A stretch of DNA of 36,002 nucleotides, from assembly GCA_018669945.1 (NCBI GenBank), contig JABHTA010000221.1, forward strand, positions 1 through 36,002. The letters run 5' to 3'. The notes below the pieces were generated by a model that made no database searches, was not told the origin of the DNA, and saw only the letters and a program-made list of their open reading frames with translations. The position numbers and the translations under genes were made by a program. How positions within the stretch are numbered: the first letter of the stretch is position 1; each line of letters opens with the position of its first letter. The DNA is from Flavobacteriales bacterium. Its GTDB lineage: Bacteria > Bacteroidota > Bacteroidia > Flavobacteriales_G > NORP312. Of this stretch, positions 1,990 to 26,943 are shown piece by piece.

Positions 1990-2940
1990 ATGCCAGAATT
2001 TAGAACGGAGGTAATCCCAAATACACTTAAACAACAATTGTTTTATGAAGATAAAGTGCTGTTGATTGGGTCATGCTTTTCCGAAAATATAGGGACGAAG
2101 TTTCGTCACTTTGGATTTAATTCTATATCCAATCCTTTTGGCGTTGTATTCAATCCTATTTCGATTGCTAATTTATTACAACGCTGTATAGATAAAAGAT
2201 TATTCGAAGAAAAGGATATTTATTTTAATCAAGGTCGTTGGTTTTGTTTCGAAACCCATGGTGATTTAGCTGGGTTAACTAAAGTGGAGTGTCTAAAAAA
2301 GCACAATGAAGTATTAAATAGTTCGGCTGATTTTTTGGAACAAGCGAGCTGTTTGATAATCACGTTCGGTTCAGCTTGGGTATACGAACATATAGAAACA
2401 GACAATTTGGTTGCTAATTGCCATAAAGTGCCTAATACACAGTTTCGGAAAAGACTTTTGTCAATTGATGAGATTGAGAAGAACTTTAAACAATTAATAA
2501 AAAACTTTGAGCGTTCAACTTCGAGCGTTCAATTTATCTTCACGATTAGCCCAATTCGCCATTGGAAAGATGGGGTTATCGAAAACCAAAGAAGTAAGTC
2601 GTTACTTCATCTGGCGATACAGTCGTTGGTTGAGCAATATGACAATTTAAATTACTTCCCTGCATATGAAATTATGTTAGACGATTTACGTGATTATCGT
2701 TTCTATAAAGAAGATATGATGCATCCGAATCAGCAGGCAGTAAATTATATCTGGGAGAAGTTCAAAAATTTCGCAATTGATGAATCGTGTTTGGACTTGA
2801 TGTTACGTATGGATAAACTTAGAAGTTCTATTGCGCATCGGCCATTCAACAAAGATTCAACAGAATATCAAAATTTCAAGGAGGGGATAGCTAAAGAGGT
2901 TCTTTTAGTAAAAGAAATTCTCCCGCATTTAGAGTTATAA
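1990..2940 (+). CDS. GSCFA domain-containing protein
   Basis: 316 aa with diagnostic LLIGSCFSENIG near the N-terminus. Confidence 0.9.
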   Translation: MPEFRTEVIPNTLKQQLFYEDKVLLIGSCFSENIGTKFRHFGFNSISNPFGVVFNPISIANLLQRCIDKRLFEEKDIYFNQGRWFCFETHGDLAGLTKVECLKKHNEVLNSSADFLEQASCLIITFGSAWVYEHIETDNLVANCHKVPNTQFRKRLLSIDEIEKNFKQLIKNFERSTSSVQFIFTISPIRHWKDGVIENQRSKSLLHLAIQSLVEQYDNLNYFPAYEIMLDDLRDYRFYKEDMMHPNQQAVNYIWEKFKNFAIDESCLDLMLRMDKLRSSIAHRPFNKDSTEYQNFKEGIAKEVLLVKEILPHLEL

Positions 2941-3993
2941 AGAATTAACAAATGCTCTTATGGTTTGTTCCAATGTGTTTGTTTTATGAACCTGCGGAAT
3001 TCCTTTATAATTTCCAGCCATTTCCAATCCACTTTTCAGGTTTAAATCTTTTTGTTTTTGCCAGGAAGTATGTCCTTTCCCTCGGTGGTATTTTGCAAGG
3101 TATTCCTGCTCTGTTTGTCCAGGTGTTGGTATAAACATGGCTTTCTTTTCAAATTGCGCTAAATCCATTATAGTTGAGTATCCTGGGCGGGACACGATAA
3201 CGTCTGCAGCATTAATCGCTTCCGCCATTTGCTTGGAATCTAAATGAGAACGAATTTCAATATTACCTTCTGTTTTGTTAATGGTTTTATCCGGTTGCCC
3301 TAAAACTACCATTGCAGATTTGTTAAGATGTTTTAGCTGTGGAATAATCAAATTTTGAAATAGAGTTCGTTGCGGCTCTGGACCAGAAATAATAACAAGT
3401 ACTTCGTATTTTTTCTTACCAATATTGTATGTGTCTAGTCGCGAAATAGGACCAACATATTTTACGTTTTCTGGTGGATTCTTTTGCGATAATTTTCCAC
3501 TTAAATTTCCTTTGCCCTGAATGTCTGGCACCCAACATTCATTGTGTTTGTTGATGAATTTGCTGTTAATCTGTTTGAGCAAAAACTGCCCAATTGGAGC
3601 TTGAATGTTTAATTGGTGTGTGATGAAGGCGCTTGGTATTTCAATGTTATACAAGCCGTATCTATTGTCTGAAATAATGCCGTCTAGCTTATGCATTTCA
3701 TTTATTTCATCTAGGTATTGGTTCTCAATCATGATTTTTCCCACAAGTTTTCTGAACGATTTAATCATGTGCCAAGTCATGCCGCCATTTTTTGGGTAGT
3801 CAATTTTGTATCCAGGAAATTTAAGGTAAGGAACCGTTGGGAATTCCTTCCGCAATAGGTCTAATTGAGGGCCATCAGAACCGATAATTACTTCACAGTT
3901 TAAGTCTCTTAGGATTTTAATTATAGGCACGCATCTTGTTGCGTGACCAAGTCCCCAATCTAATGGGCTAATAAATACTTTTTTTCTGCTCAT
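2935..3993 (-). CDS. MurG-like (GT28-type) glycosyltransferase family protein
   Basis: N-term MSRKKVFISPLDWGLGHATRCVPI, C-term ADVIVSRPGYSTIMDLAQF. The ORF track extends to 4146, but the Met at 3993 is the likely start because the extension runs into the trmB promoter and start. Confidence 0.8.
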   Translation of the reverse strand: MSRKKVFISPLDWGLGHATRCVPIIKILRDLNCEVIIGSDGPQLDLLRKEFPTVPYLKFPGYKIDYPKNGGMTWHMIKSFRKLVGKIMIENQYLDEINEMHKLDGIISDNRYGLYNIEIPSAFITHQLNIQAPIGQFLLKQINSKFINKHNECWVPDIQGKGNLSGKLSQKNPPENVKYVGPISRLDTYNIGKKKYEVLVIISGPEPQRTLFQNLIIPQLKHLNKSAMVVLGQPDKTINKTEGNIEIRSHLDSKQMAEAINAADVIVSRPGYSTIMDLAQFEKKAMFIPTPGQTEQEYLAKYHRGKGHTSWQKQKDLNLKSGLEMAGNYKGIPQVHKTNTLEQTIRAFVNSL

Positions 3994-4013
3994 TAACACG
4001 AAATTAGTAATTC

Positions 4014-4021
4014 CAAACTTA
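4014..4021 (-). promoter_or_regulatory. candidate Bacteroidota -7 element (TAAGTTTG on minus strand) for the glycosyltransferase gene
   Basis: Plus-strand CAAACTTA is the reverse complement of TAnnTTTG, 21 bp upstream of the start at 3993; no clear -33 TTG. Confidence 0.35.
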
Positions 4022-4047
4022 ATTTTAGTGAAGAAACGGAATCTTAC

Positions 4048-4081
4048 TTTGATAATTATTCTCTTTGAACTTTTACCTTTG
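4048..4081 (+). promoter_or_regulatory. Bacteroidota-type promoter (TTTG-N22-TACCTTTG) for trmB
   Basis: TTTG at 4048-4051 and TAccTTTG at 4074-4081, just upstream of ATG at 4098; fits the Flavobacterium TTG/N17-23/TAnnTTTG consensus. Confidence 0.65.
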
Positions 4082-4097
4082 CACTCGAACTTTGAAT

Positions 4098-4790
4098 ATG
4101 GGAAGTAACAAAAATAAACTGGAGCGTTTTGCTGAAATGAAGTCATTCGCTAACGTGTTTGAGCCGGATATAGAAAACGTAAAAACGGGGCATTATCATC
4201 TAAAGGGTAATTGGCGAGAAGATTACTTTAAAAATGATAATCCGATTGTTTTAGAACTAGGTTGCGGAAAAGGTGAGTATACCGTTGGGATGGCTGAAAA
4301 ATTTCCAGATAAGAACTTTATCGCTATTGATATAAAAGGTGCCCGAATGTATATTGGATCAAAGCATGCACTTGAGCACGAGATGTACAATGTTGCTTTT
4401 TTACGCACTAGAATTGAATTTATTGAATCGTTTTTTGAAAAGGATGAGGTAGATGAAATTTGGATAACATTCCCCGACCCTCAGCCCATAGATAGGCGAG
4501 TTAAGAAGAGATTGACTTCCCCTTTGTTTTTAGATAGATATCTAAAATTTTTAAAACCCGGGGGTATTGTGCATTTAAAAACGGATAGCGCGATGCTGCA
4601 TGAATATACGTTGCAAGTGATAAGAGACCGAAAATATAAATTGATTGATGCTTCTGCTGATTTATATGCTAGTAAAATTTCTGAGTATGATATTGATACC
4701 CAAGAAATATTAGGAATAAAAACGCATTACGAAACATTGTTTTCAGAGAAAGGATTTAAAATTACTTATCTTAAATTTCAGATGAATTAG
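4098..4790 (+). CDS. trmB: tRNA (guanine-N7-)-methyltransferase TrmB
   Basis: LELGCGKGEYTVGMAEKFPDKNFIAIDIKGARMY and ITFPDPQPIDRRVKKRL motifs; start set at MGSNKNKLERF (4098) rather than the ORF start at 4065. Confidence 0.9.
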   Translation: MGSNKNKLERFAEMKSFANVFEPDIENVKTGHYHLKGNWREDYFKNDNPIVLELGCGKGEYTVGMAEKFPDKNFIAIDIKGARMYIGSKHALEHEMYNVAFLRTRIEFIESFFEKDEVDEIWITFPDPQPIDRRVKKRLTSPLFLDRYLKFLKPGGIVHLKTDSAMLHEYTLQVIRDRKYKLIDASADLYASKISEYDIDTQEILGIKTHYETLFSEKGFKITYLKFQMN

Positions 4791-4793
4791 AGA

Positions 4794-5141
4794 ATGAATC
4801 TTTCAGATAAAAGTCGTAATTTTTTTCTCGATGTGTACGAGGTTGTCAAGCTGATTCCAGAGGGTAAGGTAACTTCTTATGGTTCTATTGCGAAATATTT
4901 AGGCGTTGTTCGTTCTTCAAGAATGGTTGGCTGGGCAATGAATGCAGCTCACGGCAAACCAGAAGTTCCTGCACACAGAGTAGTAAATAGAGCTGGGTTG
5001 TTAACAGGAAAAGAACATTTCGAAAACCCATTCGCTATGCAAAGAAAATTAGAAGCTGAAGGGATTGTTGTTATAGATAATCAAATCGTTAATTTTGCCA
5101 ACCACTTTTGGGATCCGATGCAGGAATTAACAATCGAATAA
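4794..5141 (+). CDS. MGMT-family alkyltransferase-like (ATL) protein, catalytic Cys replaced by Ala
   Basis: 115 aa; PEGKVTSYGSIAKYLG…VGWAMNAA…PAHRVVNRAGLLTGK. The canonical PCHRV motif is PAHRV, with GCA at 4971-4973. Confidence 0.88.
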   Translation: MNLSDKSRNFFLDVYEVVKLIPEGKVTSYGSIAKYLGVVRSSRMVGWAMNAAHGKPEVPAHRVVNRAGLLTGKEHFENPFAMQRKLEAEGIVVIDNQIVNFANHFWDPMQELTIE

Positions 5142-5142
5142 A

Positions 5143-6222
5143 ATGGAGATAAATAGAGATACAGTAAGAAAAGCTTTAAGCTATGTAATTGAGCCAGATC
5201 TAAAGAAGGACGTCATAGCATTAAATTTGGTCACAGAACTTACCGTTTCGGGTAACAAAATTTCTTTTATTTTAAATGTAAGCAATCCAGCGATGCACAA
5301 TCGCAAACGAATGGAAGAGGCTTGTATGCATCAGTTAAATCGTTTTTTAGGAGAAGATATAGAAGTTAAAATACATGTCGCAGCAATGCCTCCAACTCAA
5401 GATAAACTGAAAGAGAATAGAACGGTTCTTCCTCAAGTGAAAAACATTGTTGCCATTGCCAGTGGAAAGGGAGGAGTAGGTAAATCCACTATTACAGCAA
5501 ACCTTGCGGTTGGCCTAGTAAAAAAAGGGTTTAAAGTTGGAATTATCGATGCTGATATTTATGGTCCATCTATACCAATAATGTTTGACGTTGCACAAGA
5601 AAAGCCTGGTGTTGCTAATGGAGAAACAAATAACAAAATGACCCCTGTTGAAGGTCATGGGGTTAAGATTCTTTCTATTGGTTTTTTCGCGGACTCTAAT
5701 CAAGCTGTAGCTTGGAGAGGGCCAATGGCTTCAAAAGCACTAAATCAAATGATTAATGATGTGGAATGGGGTGAATTAGACTACATGTTAATTGATTTGC
5801 CTCCTGGAACGGGAGATATTCACTTGTCTTTAGTTCAGGCTTTACCATTAACTGGAGCTATTGTTGTAAGTACTCCGCAAGTTGTCGCGTTAGCAGATGC
5901 TCGTAAAGGTGTAGCTATGTTTAAAATGGACGGAATTAAAGTTCCTGTGCTGGGAATAGTTGAAAATATGTCATATTTTACCCCTGCAGAATTGCCAGAA
6001 AATAAGTACTTTATTTTTGGGGAAGAGGGCGCAAAGCTTTTGGCAGAAGATTTGAAGCTTCCTTGTTTAGGTCAAATTCCTATTGTACAAAGTATTCGAG
6101 AGGCAGGAGATATTGGTCGCCCGTCAATTATGCAAGAAACCACACCTCAAGCATTAGCATTTAAAGAATTGACGGAAAATTTCTTGAAGCACTCAAAAAT
6201 TCAAGAATTTGCCAAAGCATAA
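5143..6222 (+). CDS. Mrp/ApbC (NBP35-like) P-loop ATPase, iron-sulfur cluster carrier, with N-terminal MIP18/DUF59 domain
   Basis: ASGKGGVGKSTITANLAVGL, IIDADIYGPSIPIMF, DYMLIDLPPGTGD motifs. Confidence 0.93.
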   Translation: MEINRDTVRKALSYVIEPDLKKDVIALNLVTELTVSGNKISFILNVSNPAMHNRKRMEEACMHQLNRFLGEDIEVKIHVAAMPPTQDKLKENRTVLPQVKNIVAIASGKGGVGKSTITANLAVGLVKKGFKVGIIDADIYGPSIPIMFDVAQEKPGVANGETNNKMTPVEGHGVKILSIGFFADSNQAVAWRGPMASKALNQMINDVEWGELDYMLIDLPPGTGDIHLSLVQALPLTGAIVVSTPQVVALADARKGVAMFKMDGIKVPVLGIVENMSYFTPAELPENKYFIFGEEGAKLLAEDLKLPCLGQIPIVQSIREAGDIGRPSIMQETTPQALAFKELTENFLKHSKIQEFAKA

Positions 6223-19914: not shown

Positions 19915-21377
19915 TGAAGCTGTTAAAGGACATATTATATAAAGCAGGTATTGACGAGGTTGTCGGTTCTACCAATGTAGCTATCGAAAAAATTTGTTTT
20001 GATTCTAGAGCCATAACAAAGCTAAGTCTATTTGTTGCAGTTCCTGGGACGCAAGTTGATGGTCACAATTTTATTAATCAAGCGATAGAGGATGGTTCCG
20101 TTGCAATCGTTTGTGAAAAGTTACCGCGAAATTTAAATAGTAAAATCACTTATGTAAAAGTTGAAGATTGCAGCAGAGCTCTGGGATTTATAGCATCTAA
20201 CTTTTATGAGAATCCATCAGAAGAAATTAAGTTAGTAGGTGTTACAGGTACTAATGGGAAAACAACCACAGCAACGTTATTGTATGATTTGTTCAAATCA
20301 TTAGGGTATAAGGTTGGTTTACTTTCAACGGTTCGAAACCTAATTGGCAATGAGGAAATTCCTGCTAGTCATACAACGCCTGATGCATTGCAGTTAAATG
20401 CGCTGTTGCGGGAAATGGTTGGAAAAGGTTGTACCTATTGTTTCATGGAAGTTAGCAGCCATTCGATCGACCAAAATAGAATTGCGGGGTTAGATTTCGA
20501 TGGCGCAGTATTTACAAACATTACCCATGACCACCTAGACTATCACAAAACATTTGATGGATACATTAATGCCAAGAAGGCATTTTTTGATGGCCTAAAT
20601 GAAGAGGCTTTCGCGTTGATTAATGCAGACGATGTGCACGGAAACGTAATGGTTCAAAATTGCAGAGCCAAGAAGAGCACTTACGCTTTAAAATCAATGG
20701 CAGACTTTAAATGCCGCATCATTGAAAATCAGTTCGATGGTTTGGTCTTAAGTATCCATAATAATGAAGTTTGGACTAAGCTTATAGGTTCATTTAACGC
20801 ATACAATTTATTGACTATTTACGCAGTTTCTATTTTGTTAGGAGAAGATAAAATGGATGCGCTAACTTCTTTAAGTAAGTTGGTTTCTGTCGAAGGTCGT
20901 TTCGAGTATTTCAAAACGGAAAATAACATCACTGGAATTGTGGACTATGCCCATACTCCGGATGCATTAAAAAATGTTCTGAAAACGATTAACGATATCC
21001 GCACAGGAAATGAGCAAGTTATTGCAGTTGTCGGATGCGGTGGGGATAGGGACGCAGATAAACGTCCGAAAATGGCGGGTATAGCTTGTGAATTGGCAAC
21101 AAAAGTTGTGTTTACGTCAGACAATCCTAGAACAGAAAATCCATCTACAATTATTGAAGATATGCATAAAGGCGTTGCACCTCAATATTTCAAAAAAACC
21201 TTGTCAATTACAGATAGAAAGGAAGCTATAAAGGCTGCAAGTGCTATGGCGACAGAAGGTGACATAATTCTTATTGCAGGAAAAGGACATGAAAAATATC
21301 AAGAGATAAATGGGAAAAAAACGCCATTCGATGATATGGAAACTTTAATACAAATGCTTCAAATAGTTACTGGCTAA
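19914..21377 (+). CDS. murE: UDP-N-acetylmuramoyl-L-alanyl-D-glutamate--2,6-diaminopimelate ligase MurE
   Basis: 487 aa; [33 protein letters not shown] (DNPR motif of Dap-adding MurE). Confidence 0.94.
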
Positions 21378-22627
21378 TGTTATATCACTTGTTTCAATAT
21401 CTTCAAGAAATGAACGTGCCCGGTGCAGGTGTATTCGGCTATATTTCTTTTAGGGCAGCCATGGCTGCCGTGGTTTCACTCGTTATTAGTTTGTTGTTTG
21501 GCAAAAGAATAATTGCCTTTCTGCTTAAAAAACAAGTTGGAGAAACCGTTAGAGATTTAGGGTTAGAGGGTCAAATTGAGAAGCAGGGAACACCAACAAT
21601 GGGTGGCCTAATCATCATCGCAGCGATTGTAATTCCAACATTGTTGTTCGCTAGACTCGATAATGTCTATATCATTTTACTGCTCATTACTACTCTTTGG
21701 TTAGGTGCAATTGGCTTCACTGATGACTACATCAAAGTGTTTAAAAAGAATAAAGAAGGGTTAGCTGGCCGATTCAAAATTGTTGGACAGGTTGGTATAG
21801 GTTTAATTGTTGGGTTTACTGTTTATTTCCATCCTGCGATCAAAACACGTGTTGAAATTCCATTGGAAGTTGTTACTCAAGTTGACGCTTCATTAGTAAG
21901 TGTAATAGTAAATGATGATGGGAACACAACTTATTTGTTAGATAGAAAGTCACCAAATACAACTATACCTTTTGTGAAGAACAATGAGTTCAATTACTCT
22001 TCAGTTCTCGGTTTGATTAGTAATGATTTAAGAAGTTACACATGGATAATTTATGTGCTTGCTGTAATATTTATTATAACAGCCGTATCGAATGGGGCAA
22101 ACTTGACAGATGGAATTGATGGATTAGCGACAGGCACTTCTGCGATTATTATGTTAACAATTGGGGTGTTTGTTTATTTATCTGGTAATGTAATGTTTTC
22201 TGATTATTTGGATATCATGTATATCCCAAATATAGGAGAGTTAACCGTTTTTGTAGCTGCATTTATTGGAGCTTGCATAGGCTTCTTATGGTACAATTCA
22301 TATCCGGCTCAAATTTTTATGGGTGACACCGGAAGCCTTGCTATTGGTGGAATTATTGCAACGCTTGCAATTCTAGTAAGAAAAGAGCTGCTGATACCTG
22401 TTTTATGCGGGGTTTTCTTTATTGAAACTATTTCTGTGATGATGCAAGTAGGGTATTTTAAGTACACCAAAAAGAAACTAGGTGAAGGGAAACGAATTTT
22501 CTTAATGGCTCCATTACACCATCATTATCAGAAAAAAGGATTGCATGAATCAAAAATTGTTTCACGGTTTTGGATTGTTGGTATTATGCTAGCAATTATA
22601 ACTGTTGTAACGCTTAAGTTGAGATAA
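21377..22627 (+). CDS. mraY: phospho-N-acetylmuramoyl-pentapeptide-transferase MraY
   Basis: 416 aa; [56 protein letters not shown]. Confidence 0.95.
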
Positions 22628-22631
22628 TGTA

Positions 22632-23972
22632 ATGAAAAACTTAGTTGTTCTCGGTGGTGGAGAAAGCGGCATAGGGGCAGCTATTTTAGGGTTAAAAAAA
22701 GGGTATAAAGTATTTGTTTCTGACAAAGGCAGAATCAAAGAAAAGTATAAAAAAGTTCTTTCAAATCTCGCCCTTGAATGGGAAGAAAAGCAGCATTCTG
22801 AGGATTTAATATTTCAAGCAGATGTGGTTGTTAAAAGTCCAGGAATACCAGATACAGTTCTGCTGGTAGAACAGTTAATTGAAAAAGGTATTGAAGTTAT
22901 TTCTGAGATTGAATTTGCAGGCAGATTTACCGAGGCTAAAATGATTTGCGTAACGGGAAGCAATGGCAAAACAACAACAGCACTCTTATTGTACCATATT
23001 CTTAAGAATGGAGGATTAAATGTTGGGTTGGCCGGTAATGTCGGAAAAAGTCTAGCGCTGCAAGTTGCAGAAGACAATTTTGATTTTTATGTGGTTGAGT
23101 TGAGTAGTTTTCAGTTAGACGGGATGTTTCATTTTAAAGCGGACATCGCTATATTAATGAATATTACGCCAGATCATCTCGATAGGTACGATTATGAAAT
23201 GCAGAAATATATCGATTCTAAATTTCGAATTATTCAAAACCAAGCTTCTACAGATTACTTCATCTATTGTCTAGATGATGAAAATATCGCTAAAGAAGTA
23301 TCCAAAAGAGATTTCAAATCACAGCTTATACCATTCACGATAGAACAAGATTTAAACGAGTTACAAGGAGCATATATAAAAAACGAACAATTATTAATTA
23401 ACTACAAAAACCAGGAATTAAATATGTCAATATATAAACTAGCATTAGAAGGCAAACACAACATCTACAACTCTATGGCCTCGGGAGTTGCGTCTAGCAT
23501 TTTAGAACTGCGAAAGGATGTTGTTAGAGATAGTCTTACCGATTTTCAAAATGTAGAACATCGAATGGAGAAAGTGGTAAGCGTTCACGGAATCGACTTT
23601 GTTAATGACTCCAAAGCAACTAATATTAACTCTGCTTGGTACGCATTGGAAACCATGCCAGCTGGAGTAGTTTGGATTGTTGGCGGTGTCGATAAAGGAA
23701 ACGATTACTCTATCTTAAAAGATGTAGTTAAAGAAAAAGTAACAGCAATTGTTTGTTTAGGGAAGGATAATACCAAAATTAGAGAGGCGTTTAAAGATAG
23801 CGGTGTTTCTATTGCCGAAACGGTTTCTATGGAGGGCGCAGTCAAGTTTGCCTACCAGTTAGGTAAAAAAGGAGATACTGTTTTGTTAAGTCCTGCATGC
23901 GCCAGTTTCGATTTGTTTGAAGATTACGAAGATAGAGGACGGCAATTTAAAGAACAGGTAAGAGGCTTGTAG
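22632..23972 (+). CDS. murD: UDP-N-acetylmuramoylalanine--D-glutamate ligase MurD
   Basis: 446 aa; VVKSPGIP, CVTGSNGKTTTALL, NDSKATNINS, LSPACASFDLFEDYEDRG. Confidence 0.95.
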   Translation: MKNLVVLGGGESGIGAAILGLKKGYKVFVSDKGRIKEKYKKVLSNLALEWEEKQHSEDLIFQADVVVKSPGIPDTVLLVEQLIEKGIEVISEIEFAGRFTEAKMICVTGSNGKTTTALLLYHILKNGGLNVGLAGNVGKSLALQVAEDNFDFYVVELSSFQLDGMFHFKADIAILMNITPDHLDRYDYEMQKYIDSKFRIIQNQASTDYFIYCLDDENIAKEVSKRDFKSQLIPFTIEQDLNELQGAYIKNEQLLINYKNQELNMSIYKLALEGKHNIYNSMASGVASSILELRKDVVRDSLTDFQNVEHRMEKVVSVHGIDFVNDSKATNINSAWYALETMPAGVVWIVGGVDKGNDYSILKDVVKEKVTAIVCLGKDNTKIREAFKDSGVSIAETVSMEGAVKFAYQLGKKGDTVLLSPACASFDLFEDYEDRGRQFKEQVRGL

Positions 23973-24084: not shown

Positions 24085-24615
24085 ATGGATATGAACACAA
24101 ATGTTAAAAGTAGCGAAGTTTCTAAAAAAAGTTTGGCTGATAAATTAGTTGAGTCAAGACAATCGAATGTAGACGAATTTGGTGGTATAGAGCATAGATT
24201 AGAGTTAATCTCAAACGTTAAAAGTGTAGATTATGTAAATGATTCTAAAGCCACAGATGTTAACTCTACATGGTATTCTTTAGAATGCATGGATAAGCCT
24301 GTTGTATGGATTGTTGGGCTTTCTGATTTGGAAACTGATTACATGATTTTTAATGATTTGGTAAATCAAAACGTAAAGGCAATTGTTTGTTTGGGTAAAA
24401 ACATTAATGGAGCGTTAAATTCCTTAATTGAAAGAGTGGATTGCTTTTCAGAAGCTTCTTCGGTTTCGGAAGCAGTGCAAATTTCTAGTTCGCTTTCAAC
24501 CGAAGGTGATGTGGTGCTATTCTCGCCTGCTTGTTCAAGTTTTCACTTGTATCAAAATTATAAAGATAGAGGTGAGCAGTTTAGAAAATCTGTTTTAGAG
24601 TTGTCTCAGAAGTAA
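24085..24615 (+). CDS. stand-alone MurD C-terminal (glutamate ligase) domain paralog
   Basis: 176 aa; EHRLELI…VDYVNDSKATDVNSTWYSLECMDKPVVWIVG…VKAIVCLGK…GDVVLFSPACSSFHLYQNYKDRGEQF aligns with the MurD C-terminus of the preceding gene; no P-loop. Confidence 0.88.
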   Translation: MDMNTNVKSSEVSKKSLADKLVESRQSNVDEFGGIEHRLELISNVKSVDYVNDSKATDVNSTWYSLECMDKPVVWIVGLSDLETDYMIFNDLVNQNVKAIVCLGKNINGALNSLIERVDCFSEASSVSEAVQISSSLSTEGDVVLFSPACSSFHLYQNYKDRGEQFRKSVLELSQK

Positions 24616-24692: not shown

Positions 24693-25853
24693 TTGAATAA
24701 TATTCTAAAATATACTAAAGGTGATCGAGCGATTTGGCTTGTAGTACTGTTTTTGTCTATTATTTCAACCCTAGTAGTTTATACCTCTATTACCTCTTTG
24801 GCTTATCGTCATCATGATGGTAATACTTTTTATTATCTATTTCGTCATACTACATTCCTTATAATAGGGCTTGGTATTATGTATGGAATCCATAGAATTA
24901 AATACAGTTATTTTTCCCGAGTAGCGCAACTTGCATTATATATTTCAGTACCGTTATTGCTACTTACACTATTAATAGGTTCTAATTTGAATAATGCAAG
25001 CCGTTGGTTAGTGATTCCGGTTATTAATCAGTCATTCCAAACTTCCGATTTAGCAAAACTGTCACTGATAATGTACGTAGCGAGAATACTTTCCATTAGG
25101 CAAGATGTAATCAAGGATTTTAAGAAGGCATTTGTTCCAATAGTTTTACCAATTTTCGCAGTTTGTGGGTTGATATTTCCTGCTAACTTTTCCACTGCAG
25201 CTGTTCTTTTTACTGTTTGTTTGGTGTTGATGTTTATTGGTAGAATTAGTTTAAAACATATTGGCGCCATGATAGGTTCAGGAATCGTGGCAATTGGGTT
25301 AGCATTTTTATTAGCGATGTCAGTACCGGGATTGTTGCCAAGAATTGATACATGGATTGCAAGAATTGAAAATTTCTCTAGTGCAGATAGTAAAGGAAAT
25401 TATCAAGCCGAACAGTCTAAAATTGCAGTGGCTGCAGGTGGAATAACAGGAAAAGGTCCTGGTAAAAGTACGCAAAGAAATTTCTTGCCACATCCTTATT
25501 CCGACTTTATTTATGCTATAGTTTTAGAGGAGTATGGTTTGATAGGGGGTGTTACTGTTCTGATGCTATACCTTATTTTATTGTATCGAGCAGTACGTAT
25601 TGTTGTTAAGAGCCCCAAAGCATTTGGGGCGTTATTAGCTGTTGGGATAGCATTTATGCTTGTTTTTCAAGCCATGATTAACATGGCTGTTGCAGTTAAT
25701 CTATTTCCTGTTACCGGCCAGCCATTGCCAATGGTTAGTATGGGAGGTACGTCAATTTGGTTTACCTGTATTGCAATTGGAATTATCCTCAGTGTAAGTA
25801 GGGGGGTCGAACATGAATCAACCTTAAATAGGATGGCTCATGCAAAAATATAG
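24693..25853 (+). CDS. ftsW: lipid II polymerase / cell division SEDS protein FtsW
   Basis: 386 aa polytopic; SLILYVARILS-like region, GKGPGKSTQRNFLPHPYSDFIYAIVLEEYGLIGG, PVTGQPLPMVSMGGTSIWF. Start codon is TTG (24693). Confidence 0.93.
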   Translation: MNNILKYTKGDRAIWLVVLFLSIISTLVVYTSITSLAYRHHDGNTFYYLFRHTTFLIIGLGIMYGIHRIKYSYFSRVAQLALYISVPLLLLTLLIGSNLNNASRWLVIPVINQSFQTSDLAKLSLIMYVARILSIRQDVIKDFKKAFVPIVLPIFAVCGLIFPANFSTAAVLFTVCLVLMFIGRISLKHIGAMIGSGIVAIGLAFLLAMSVPGLLPRIDTWIARIENFSSADSKGNYQAEQSKIAVAAGGITGKGPGKSTQRNFLPHPYSDFIYAIVLEEYGLIGGVTVLMLYLILLYRAVRIVVKSPKAFGALLAVGIAFMLVFQAMINMAVAVNLFPVTGQPLPMVSMGGTSIWFTCIAIGIILSVSRGVEHESTLNRMAHAKI

Positions 25854-26943
25854 AGTTATCATTAGTGGTGGCGGTACAGGTGGTCACATATTTCCTGCAA
25901 TTGCTATCGCAAATGCTTTAAAAGCATTAAGCCCAAACATTGAAATACTGTTTATCGGTGCTGAAGGCAGAATGGAAATGGAAAAAGTTCCTGCCGCAGG
26001 TTATAATATTAAAGGTTTATGGATAAGTGGTTTGCAGCGAAGTTTAACGCTTAAGAACTTGAGTTTTCCATTCAAACTTATTAGTAGCCTATTTAAGGCA
26101 AAAAAAATATTAAAGCAGTTTAAGCCTGATGTTGCTGTTGGAGTTGGGGGTTATGCTAGCGGACCAATGTTACACGTAGCTGCTAAATCTGGAATACCAG
26201 CACTACTTCAAGAGCAAAATTCTTACCCTGGAATTACTAATAAGTTGTTAGCAAATAAGGTGCAAAAAATTTGTGTTGCCTATGATGGTATGGAACGCTT
26301 CTTTCCAAAAGAAAAAATCATGTTAACAGGCAACCCTGTTCGAAAAGATATCAGAAATTTGGATGGAAAAAAGGCCAGGGGAGTCGAATATTTCAAGATT
26401 GATCCTGACAAAAAAACACTTTTAATAATTGGTGGAAGCTTGGGCGCTCGAACAATCAACCTGGCAATTGAAGCTAGTTTAAATATATATGCTGAAAATG
26501 ACATTCAAGTCATATGGCAAACAGGAAAGGCATATTTCGAGAAGGCCAAGACGGCATGTGTCAAATATGCTGATAAGGGAATTTATGCTCACGAGTTTAT
26601 CTCAAAAATGGATTATGCTTATGCAGTGGCAGATTTTGTTGTTTCAAGATCAGGAGCTATTTCGGTGTCGGAATTGTGTTTGGTAAAAAGGCCTGTAATC
26701 CTTATTCCGTCGCCTAATGTAGCAGAAGACCATCAGACTAAAAACGCGATGGCCCTAGTAGTTCATAACGCTGCGTTGTTAGTAAAAGACTTTGAAGCTG
26801 TTGATAAACTTGCAAATGAAGTACTAAACTTATCCAATAATATAGAATTGCAAGAAAAATTGAAGCAAAATATAGCGCAGCTTGGCAAAGCTGATGCTGC
26901 TGAAGTTATTGCAAACGAAGTAATTTCTTTGATTGAAAAATGA
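25840..26943 (+). CDS. murG: undecaprenyldiphospho-muramoylpentapeptide beta-N-acetylglucosaminyltransferase MurG
   Basis: 367 aa; ISGGGTGGHIFPAIAIANAL, GVGGYASGPML, LLQEQNSYPGITNK, VSRSGAISVSEL. Confidence 0.96.
   Translation: MQKYRVIISGGGTGGHIFPAIAIANALKALSPNIEILFIGAEGRMEMEKVPAAGYNIKGLWISGLQRSLTLKNLSFPFKLISSLFKAKKILKQFKPDVAVGVGGYASGPMLHVAAKSGIPALLQEQNSYPGITNKLLANKVQKICVAYDGMERFFPKEKIMLTGNPVRKDIRNLDGKKARGVEYFKIDPDKKTLLIIGGSLGARTINLAIEASLNIYAENDIQVIWQTGKAYFEKAKTACVKYADKGIYAHEFISKMDYAYAVADFVVSRSGAISVSELCLVKRPVILIPSPNVAEDHQTKNAMALVVHNAALLVKDFEAVDKLANEVLNLSNNIELQEKLKQNIAQLGKADAAEVIANEVISLIEK

Follow-up and report, generated by a model that had tools for sequence, protein, structure and literature searches.

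Why would a bacterium keep, between murD and ftsW, a second copy of nothing but the last domain of MurD? The question is raised by an open reading frame for a 176-aa protein (24085..24615, + strand) in the window, the 36,002-nucleotide stretch of a Flavobacteriales bacterium contig (JABHTA010000221.1) that is analysed here. With genes other than murD named by reading of their sequences, the order is murE–mraY–murD–copy–ftsW–murG–murC, with mraY at 21377..22627, murD at 22632..23972, ftsW at 24693..25853 and murG at 25840..26943, these four also on the + strand. The intact parent paralog, murD, lies 112 bp upstream of the copy, and ftsW lies 77 bp downstream. Translation of the copy could also begin at residue 3 (24091, + strand), which aligns with the start of most homologs.

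A stand-alone Mur-ligase domain

The open reading frame is a stand-alone Mur-ligase C-domain. It aligns without gaps to the C-terminus of the neighbouring MurD (45% identity over 143 aa, E 3e-43), which bears out the collinearity described in an earlier note on this DNA. The Pfam family Mur_ligase_C (PF02875) matches residues 37–150 at 30.8 bits, above its gathering cut-off of 28.4, and this score together with the fold places the protein in the Mur ligase C-terminal domain superfamily. The NCBIfam murD model (TIGR01087) matches over model positions 295–439 only (of 441), and the resulting 131 bits fall below the cut-off of 212 for a full-length MurD. In the profile search the copy gave no match to PF08245 (Mur_ligase_M, the P-loop central ATPase domain), in line with the earlier description of a protein without a P-loop or central domain. 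With a C-domain only, the copy is predicted to be no ligase on its own, as had been supposed. The window MurD is full length and is the sole murD above the cut-off genome-wide (393 bits).

An AlphaFold model of the copy, run with a 21-row alignment, shows a complete MurD-like C-domain plus an N-terminal helix at a mean pLDDT of 83, and its best Foldseek matches are all MurD structures (E down to 1.5e-12). Residues 1–12 are disordered in the model and residues 17–33 (24133..24183, + strand) form the helix. The N-terminus had been described as the protein's own, which holds for the first 16 or so residues; from AlphaFold secondary structure and sequence comparison, residues 17–33 match the last helix of the MurD central domain, where LELRKDVVRDSLTDF of the window MurD aligns by eye with KLVESRQSNVDEF of the copy.

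Loss of ligand-binding residues

In MurD, Lys348, Thr321, Ser415 and Phe422 (E. coli numbering throughout) touch the D-Glu moiety or its mimics (PMC3527612), and Arg302 is a hinge handle that contacts ADP (PMC4816537). The proposal that the copy shares the ligand-side motifs of MurD stands in part. EHR (residues 36–38, 24190..24198, the His301/Arg302 hinge positions), NDSKAT (residues 52–57, 24238..24255, Asn316–Thr321) and SPACSSF (residues 147–153, 24523..24543, Ser410–Leu416), all read on the + strand, are retained, and with them the equivalents of Thr321 and Ser415. The equivalent of Phe422 is Tyr, the same as in Bacteroidia MurD. The GGVDKGNDY loop of MurD is replaced by GLSDLETDY (residues 78–86, 24316..24342, + strand), in which the D-Glu-binding lysine, Lys348, has become Leu82.

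The loss is general. We surveyed 75 stand-alone copies against 97 MurD rows: Arg302, Lys319, Thr321 and Ser415 are present in 100% and Lys348 in 98% of the MurD rows, whereas the stand-alone copies have Arg302 in 64%, Lys319 in 60%, Thr321 in 66%, Ser415 in 66% and Lys348 in only 14%. The Ser415 equivalent is Asp in 16% of the copies, and the GG.DKGNDY loop is lost in the family. By contrast, at least 85% of the copies retain His301, Glu304, Asn316, Asp317, Ser410, Pro411, Gly426 and Phe429, and most have VLFSP or VLYSP where MurD has VLLSP. Judged from these sequences, conservation seems to centre on the fold, one helix and the cleft loops.

These data bear on the idea, raised by the earlier note, that the copy is a sensor of D-Glu or UMAG; in a wider form of the idea, it would bind one of these or a nucleotide and inform the cell-wall machinery of the pool. 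The motifs retained in the window copy would suit such a sensor. However, the lysine is gone there and in 86% of the family, the other ligand residues are kept in 60–66% of copies, and the UDP-precursor and ATP sites of MurD lie in the two domains that are absent (PMC4816537). D-Glu sensing is unlikely as a shared function because the ligand residues are lost or relaxed across the family, and we consider a ligand sensor improbable.

Distribution and synteny in Bacteroidia

The arrangement is not peculiar to this genome. A search of Bacteroidia genomes found syntenic orthologs between murD and ftsW across the class, a recurrence that the earlier note had left as a possibility. All 3 sampled species of the genus have the gene, the other two at 89–90% identity. 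Carriers in the order fall in genera g1, g6, g8, g11 and g17 (the window genus and four further genera), with the order murD–copy–ftsW wherever both flanks were available and murD–copy gaps of about 9–120 bp; in genera of the order that lack the gene, murD and ftsW are 34 bp or less apart.

The whole class was searched with an alignment of 17 copies, and genomes that gave a second match were then listed in full. At least 84 of the 395 Bacteroidia genomes sampled (counted from the search tables) have a stand-alone copy, a lower bound because the first pass of the large search scored nine candidates per genome. In addition to f1 and f3, about 20 family groups are represented among the carriers, which include named Flavobacteriales and Bacteroidetes metagenome-assembled genomes (MAGs; L042, L043, L047 and L049). 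Flanks were read in about 55 of these genomes, and ftsW is the most constant neighbour. The proteins are about 155–230 aa long, and the window copy falls among them by its single C-domain, its place before ftsW in the dcw cluster and its position in a separate clade. Outside Bacteroidia, a search of 297 Bacteroidota genomes did not find the gene; the second matches in 9 of them were traced to a split murD or to a different Mur ligase. A further 39 Bacteroidia loci in which no copy was detected have, with few exceptions, short murD–ftsW gaps that hold no remnants; named records without the gene include Carboxylicivirga linearis (L046) and Saccharicrinis (L045). As many Bacteroidia lack it and have clean murD–ftsW gaps, the protein is not a core component of FtsW function.

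Several loci depart from the common pattern. Two tandem, very dissimilar stand-alone genes occupy the murD–ftsW interval of G362 (L186:3064-3576 and 3611-4141, + strand; the same record as L047). The copy–ftsW interval of G037 (L074) holds a 738-bp insert with two small open reading frames, the only such case seen in the order. In G001 (L057, about 2014–3170, reverse strand) ftsW lies in two overlapping frames, most likely through a MAG assembly error. In f10, G110 and perhaps G168 the gene has diverged almost past recognition. The gap from the murD stop to ftsW in G168 (L242, f21) contains a 157-aa open reading frame with an LLIEKRREQL helix, a PIIW strand and none of the other MurD motifs, perhaps an extremely diverged version of the family, and G285 has a 99-aa open reading frame at the same position.

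Strongly diverged stand-alone paralogs also occur away from the cluster, in L131, L133 and L134 (f6), L181 (f48) and L176 (f44). Those of f6 have the N-terminus MDESFDLTSARG and lie near a MerR-type regulator, an ECF sigma factor and a photolyase-like gene, some of them also near an aldehyde-dehydrogenase-like gene. Another unlinked copy, in G411 (L143:3170-3778, – strand), has a zinc-ribbon-like N-terminal stretch, and its contig has a phage-type primase/helicase-like open reading frame.

Origin and inheritance

In a maximum-likelihood tree of 72 C-domains, which left out long-branch or odd stand-alone copies, 32 stand-alone copies lie beyond one branch (support 98/94; 97% of bootstrap trees). 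The same split was recovered with support of 99/94 when four non-Bacteroidota MurD domains were added, the outgroups other than E. coli MurD being taken from retrieved sequences. A quick tree with nearly all rows needed 4 changes, against 58 in shuffles; it placed the unlinked copy of G411 near MurD. In the same tree the stand-alone gene of G335 (f45), which sits beside murD (L177:3260-3862 and 3873-5264, – strand), clusters with its own MurD, a sign that the arrangement may have arisen independently a second time. There thus seems to be one old stand-alone family with a single main origin, and one further lineage that evolved its own version.

Mapped on a tree of MraY, the first two MurD domains, FtsW and MurG, from genomes chosen for presence of the gene, presence requires 6 changes against 23 in shuffles. 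The gene has been mostly vertically inherited, with some losses. A phage origin was considered; neither the family alignment nor the unlinked copy gave a match when scanned against viral contigs.

Selective constraint

Nei–Gojobori dN/dS of the copy is 0.135, 0.046 and 0.049 in the three within-genus pairs and 0.02–0.20 across pairs from other groups with computable dS, ratios that are rough as dS is high in many pairs. The gene is maintained by selection in many Bacteroidia families, and the purifying selection predicted by the earlier note (0.05–0.14 within the genus) is upheld. A decaying or neutral partial duplication would account for the patchy presence, the fast divergence, the near-unrecognisable versions in G110 (perhaps G168) and the frame of G028, which is disrupted near its 3′ end in one MAG. 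It does not fit the low dN/dS of all computable pairs, a single origin old enough for many families, frames that are open and a position that is fixed throughout, or the finding that genomes without the gene, with few exceptions, lack it cleanly and show no remnants. Decay has the slightest probability of the explanations considered, and for the window copy is largely refuted.

The stand-alone domain usually evolves faster than MurD. In family group f13 (L149–L152, L187 and L188) this is reversed, with identities between species of 97%, 91% and 92% for the copy against 75%, 66% and 67% for MurD. Copies of f13 and some of f29 also retain most ligand residues, including the GGVDK lysine, and the two features together would fit a role in trans, with the copy serving as a spare C-domain to complete the active site in MurD itself or in a further Mur ligase. 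The 97 MurD C-domains keep their catalytic set, however, and therefore leave nothing to complement, and most copies lack the lysine; complementation in trans is highly improbable.

Candidate partners and proposed role

We hypothesize that a single early duplication in Bacteroidia yielded a second copy of the C-terminal, amino-acid-binding domain of MurD, which was severed from the ATPase and UDP-binding domains and has stayed in the mur/fts (dcw) operon immediately ahead of ftsW. The product would be a pseudoenzyme that catalyses no ligation. Its retained domain face and N-terminal helix may dock on FtsW, MurG or MraY, where the machinery for lipid II and septal synthesis faces the cytoplasm; docking could bring or release a Mur ligase, and precursor supply would thereby be coupled to FtsW. 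Our leading candidate, to which we give a little less than an even chance, is an adaptor or regulator that binds protein, without catalysis, on the cytoplasmic side of the FtsW/MurG/MraY machinery. This reading starts from what the sequence, the predicted fold, the ligand-residue loss, the single main origin, purifying selection and the fixed place before ftsW directly support; the steps that we infer from these are that the protein does not catalyse, that it acts by binding protein, and which partner it binds.

The partner could instead be MurD. As a dedicated subunit, an option that the earlier note also raised, the copy would dock against the central domain of a Mur ligase, MurD or another, replacing or flanking the mobile C-domain, so that D-Glu addition is slowed, sped up or stabilised. 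The copy descends directly from MurD and adjoins murD in nearly all genomes, the conserved His301, Glu304, Asn316–Asp317 and Ser410–Pro411 would suit docking on a Mur central domain, and rotation of the C-domain governs the opening and closing of MurD (PMC4816537). In most genomes the stand-alone gene is equally near murD and ftsW, and the informative cases are those in which the cluster is broken. In G082 murD and the copy are on separate contigs, and the copy adjoins ftsW. In the dcw cluster of G328 canonical murD is missing and mraY–copy–ftsW–murG is intact. The sole murD-like protein over the cut-off in G328 is an 876-aa MurL-like epimerase–MurD fusion away from the cluster (L185:3264-5894, – strand, and L184), the MurL-like part of which scores 258 bits to the MurL model, below that model's cut-off. 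Read from gene order, these two cases, which are few, would lean towards a role with FtsW, MurG or MraY.

Distances point weakly the same way. Partial correlations of the copy with the first two MurD domains range from −0.07 to 0.15, with no link in any genome set, and those with FtsW or MurG from 0.11 to 0.41, varying with the genome set; the copy thus follows FtsW or MurG somewhat better than MurD, if weakly. Excess co-variation with MurD was not stable, and the fast change of MurD in f13, where the copy is almost static, also speaks against a MurD subunit. Several columns in MurD, FtsW, MurG or MraY differ between genomes with and without the gene, from which nothing is concluded, since presence follows the tree (6 changes). 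We regard a dedicated MurD subunit as less likely, though it is the strongest of the alternatives. The fuller form of the preferred reading, in which an old MurD-derived Bacteroidia pseudoenzyme links the making of precursors in the cytoplasm to septal synthesis driven by FtsW, is plausible, and we hold it with some doubt.

For a link between the cytoplasmic synthesis of peptidoglycan precursors and the membrane synthases, a selected, predicted-dead Mur-ligase domain before ftsW in many Bacteroidia is a testable candidate. If the proposal is right, a regulator that many other lineages of the class lack arose by the freeing of one domain of an adjacent enzyme. The case also shows that a conserved family can reside in a central, essential gene cluster with partial MurD as the only label that profile libraries give it.

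Comparison with known systems

The C-domain itself is known; a stand-alone family of it before ftsW, under selection and predicted to be catalytically dead, is most likely undescribed. Our literature search found no paper on a stand-alone MurD C-domain, and as subscription journals fell mostly outside that search an earlier description is possible. The family resembles MurD in its 45% identity to the neighbouring protein, its predicted fold and its operon, and differs in standing alone without the UDP-binding and ATPase domains, in the lost Lys348 loop, in its own clade and in its extra N-terminal stretch. MurT of MurT/GatD, to which the model has a weak Foldseek match (6h5e), is likewise a Mur-ligase relative with a partner protein in peptidoglycan synthesis. 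MurT is catalytic and retains the ATP-binding central domain, whereas the stand-alone protein is a C-domain only.

Two further systems are precedents for how such a protein might work. CwlM of mycobacteria has an amidase-like fold. It regulates peptidoglycan precursor synthesis and partners both FhaA and the membrane protein MurJ (PMC6180346; see also PMC12723410); unlike the family described here it is kinase-controlled, belongs to another phylum and is not homologous to the stand-alone domain. In the Mur complexes scaffolded by MurG, cytoplasmic Mur enzymes are physically coupled to membrane-side steps, although there MurG itself is the scaffold and a stand-alone Mur domain is not involved (PMC6420597). 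By analogy, and without homology to the stand-alone MurD C-domain, CwlM (PMC6180346) and the MurG-centred complexes (PMC6420597) indicate that couplings of the kind proposed here exist.
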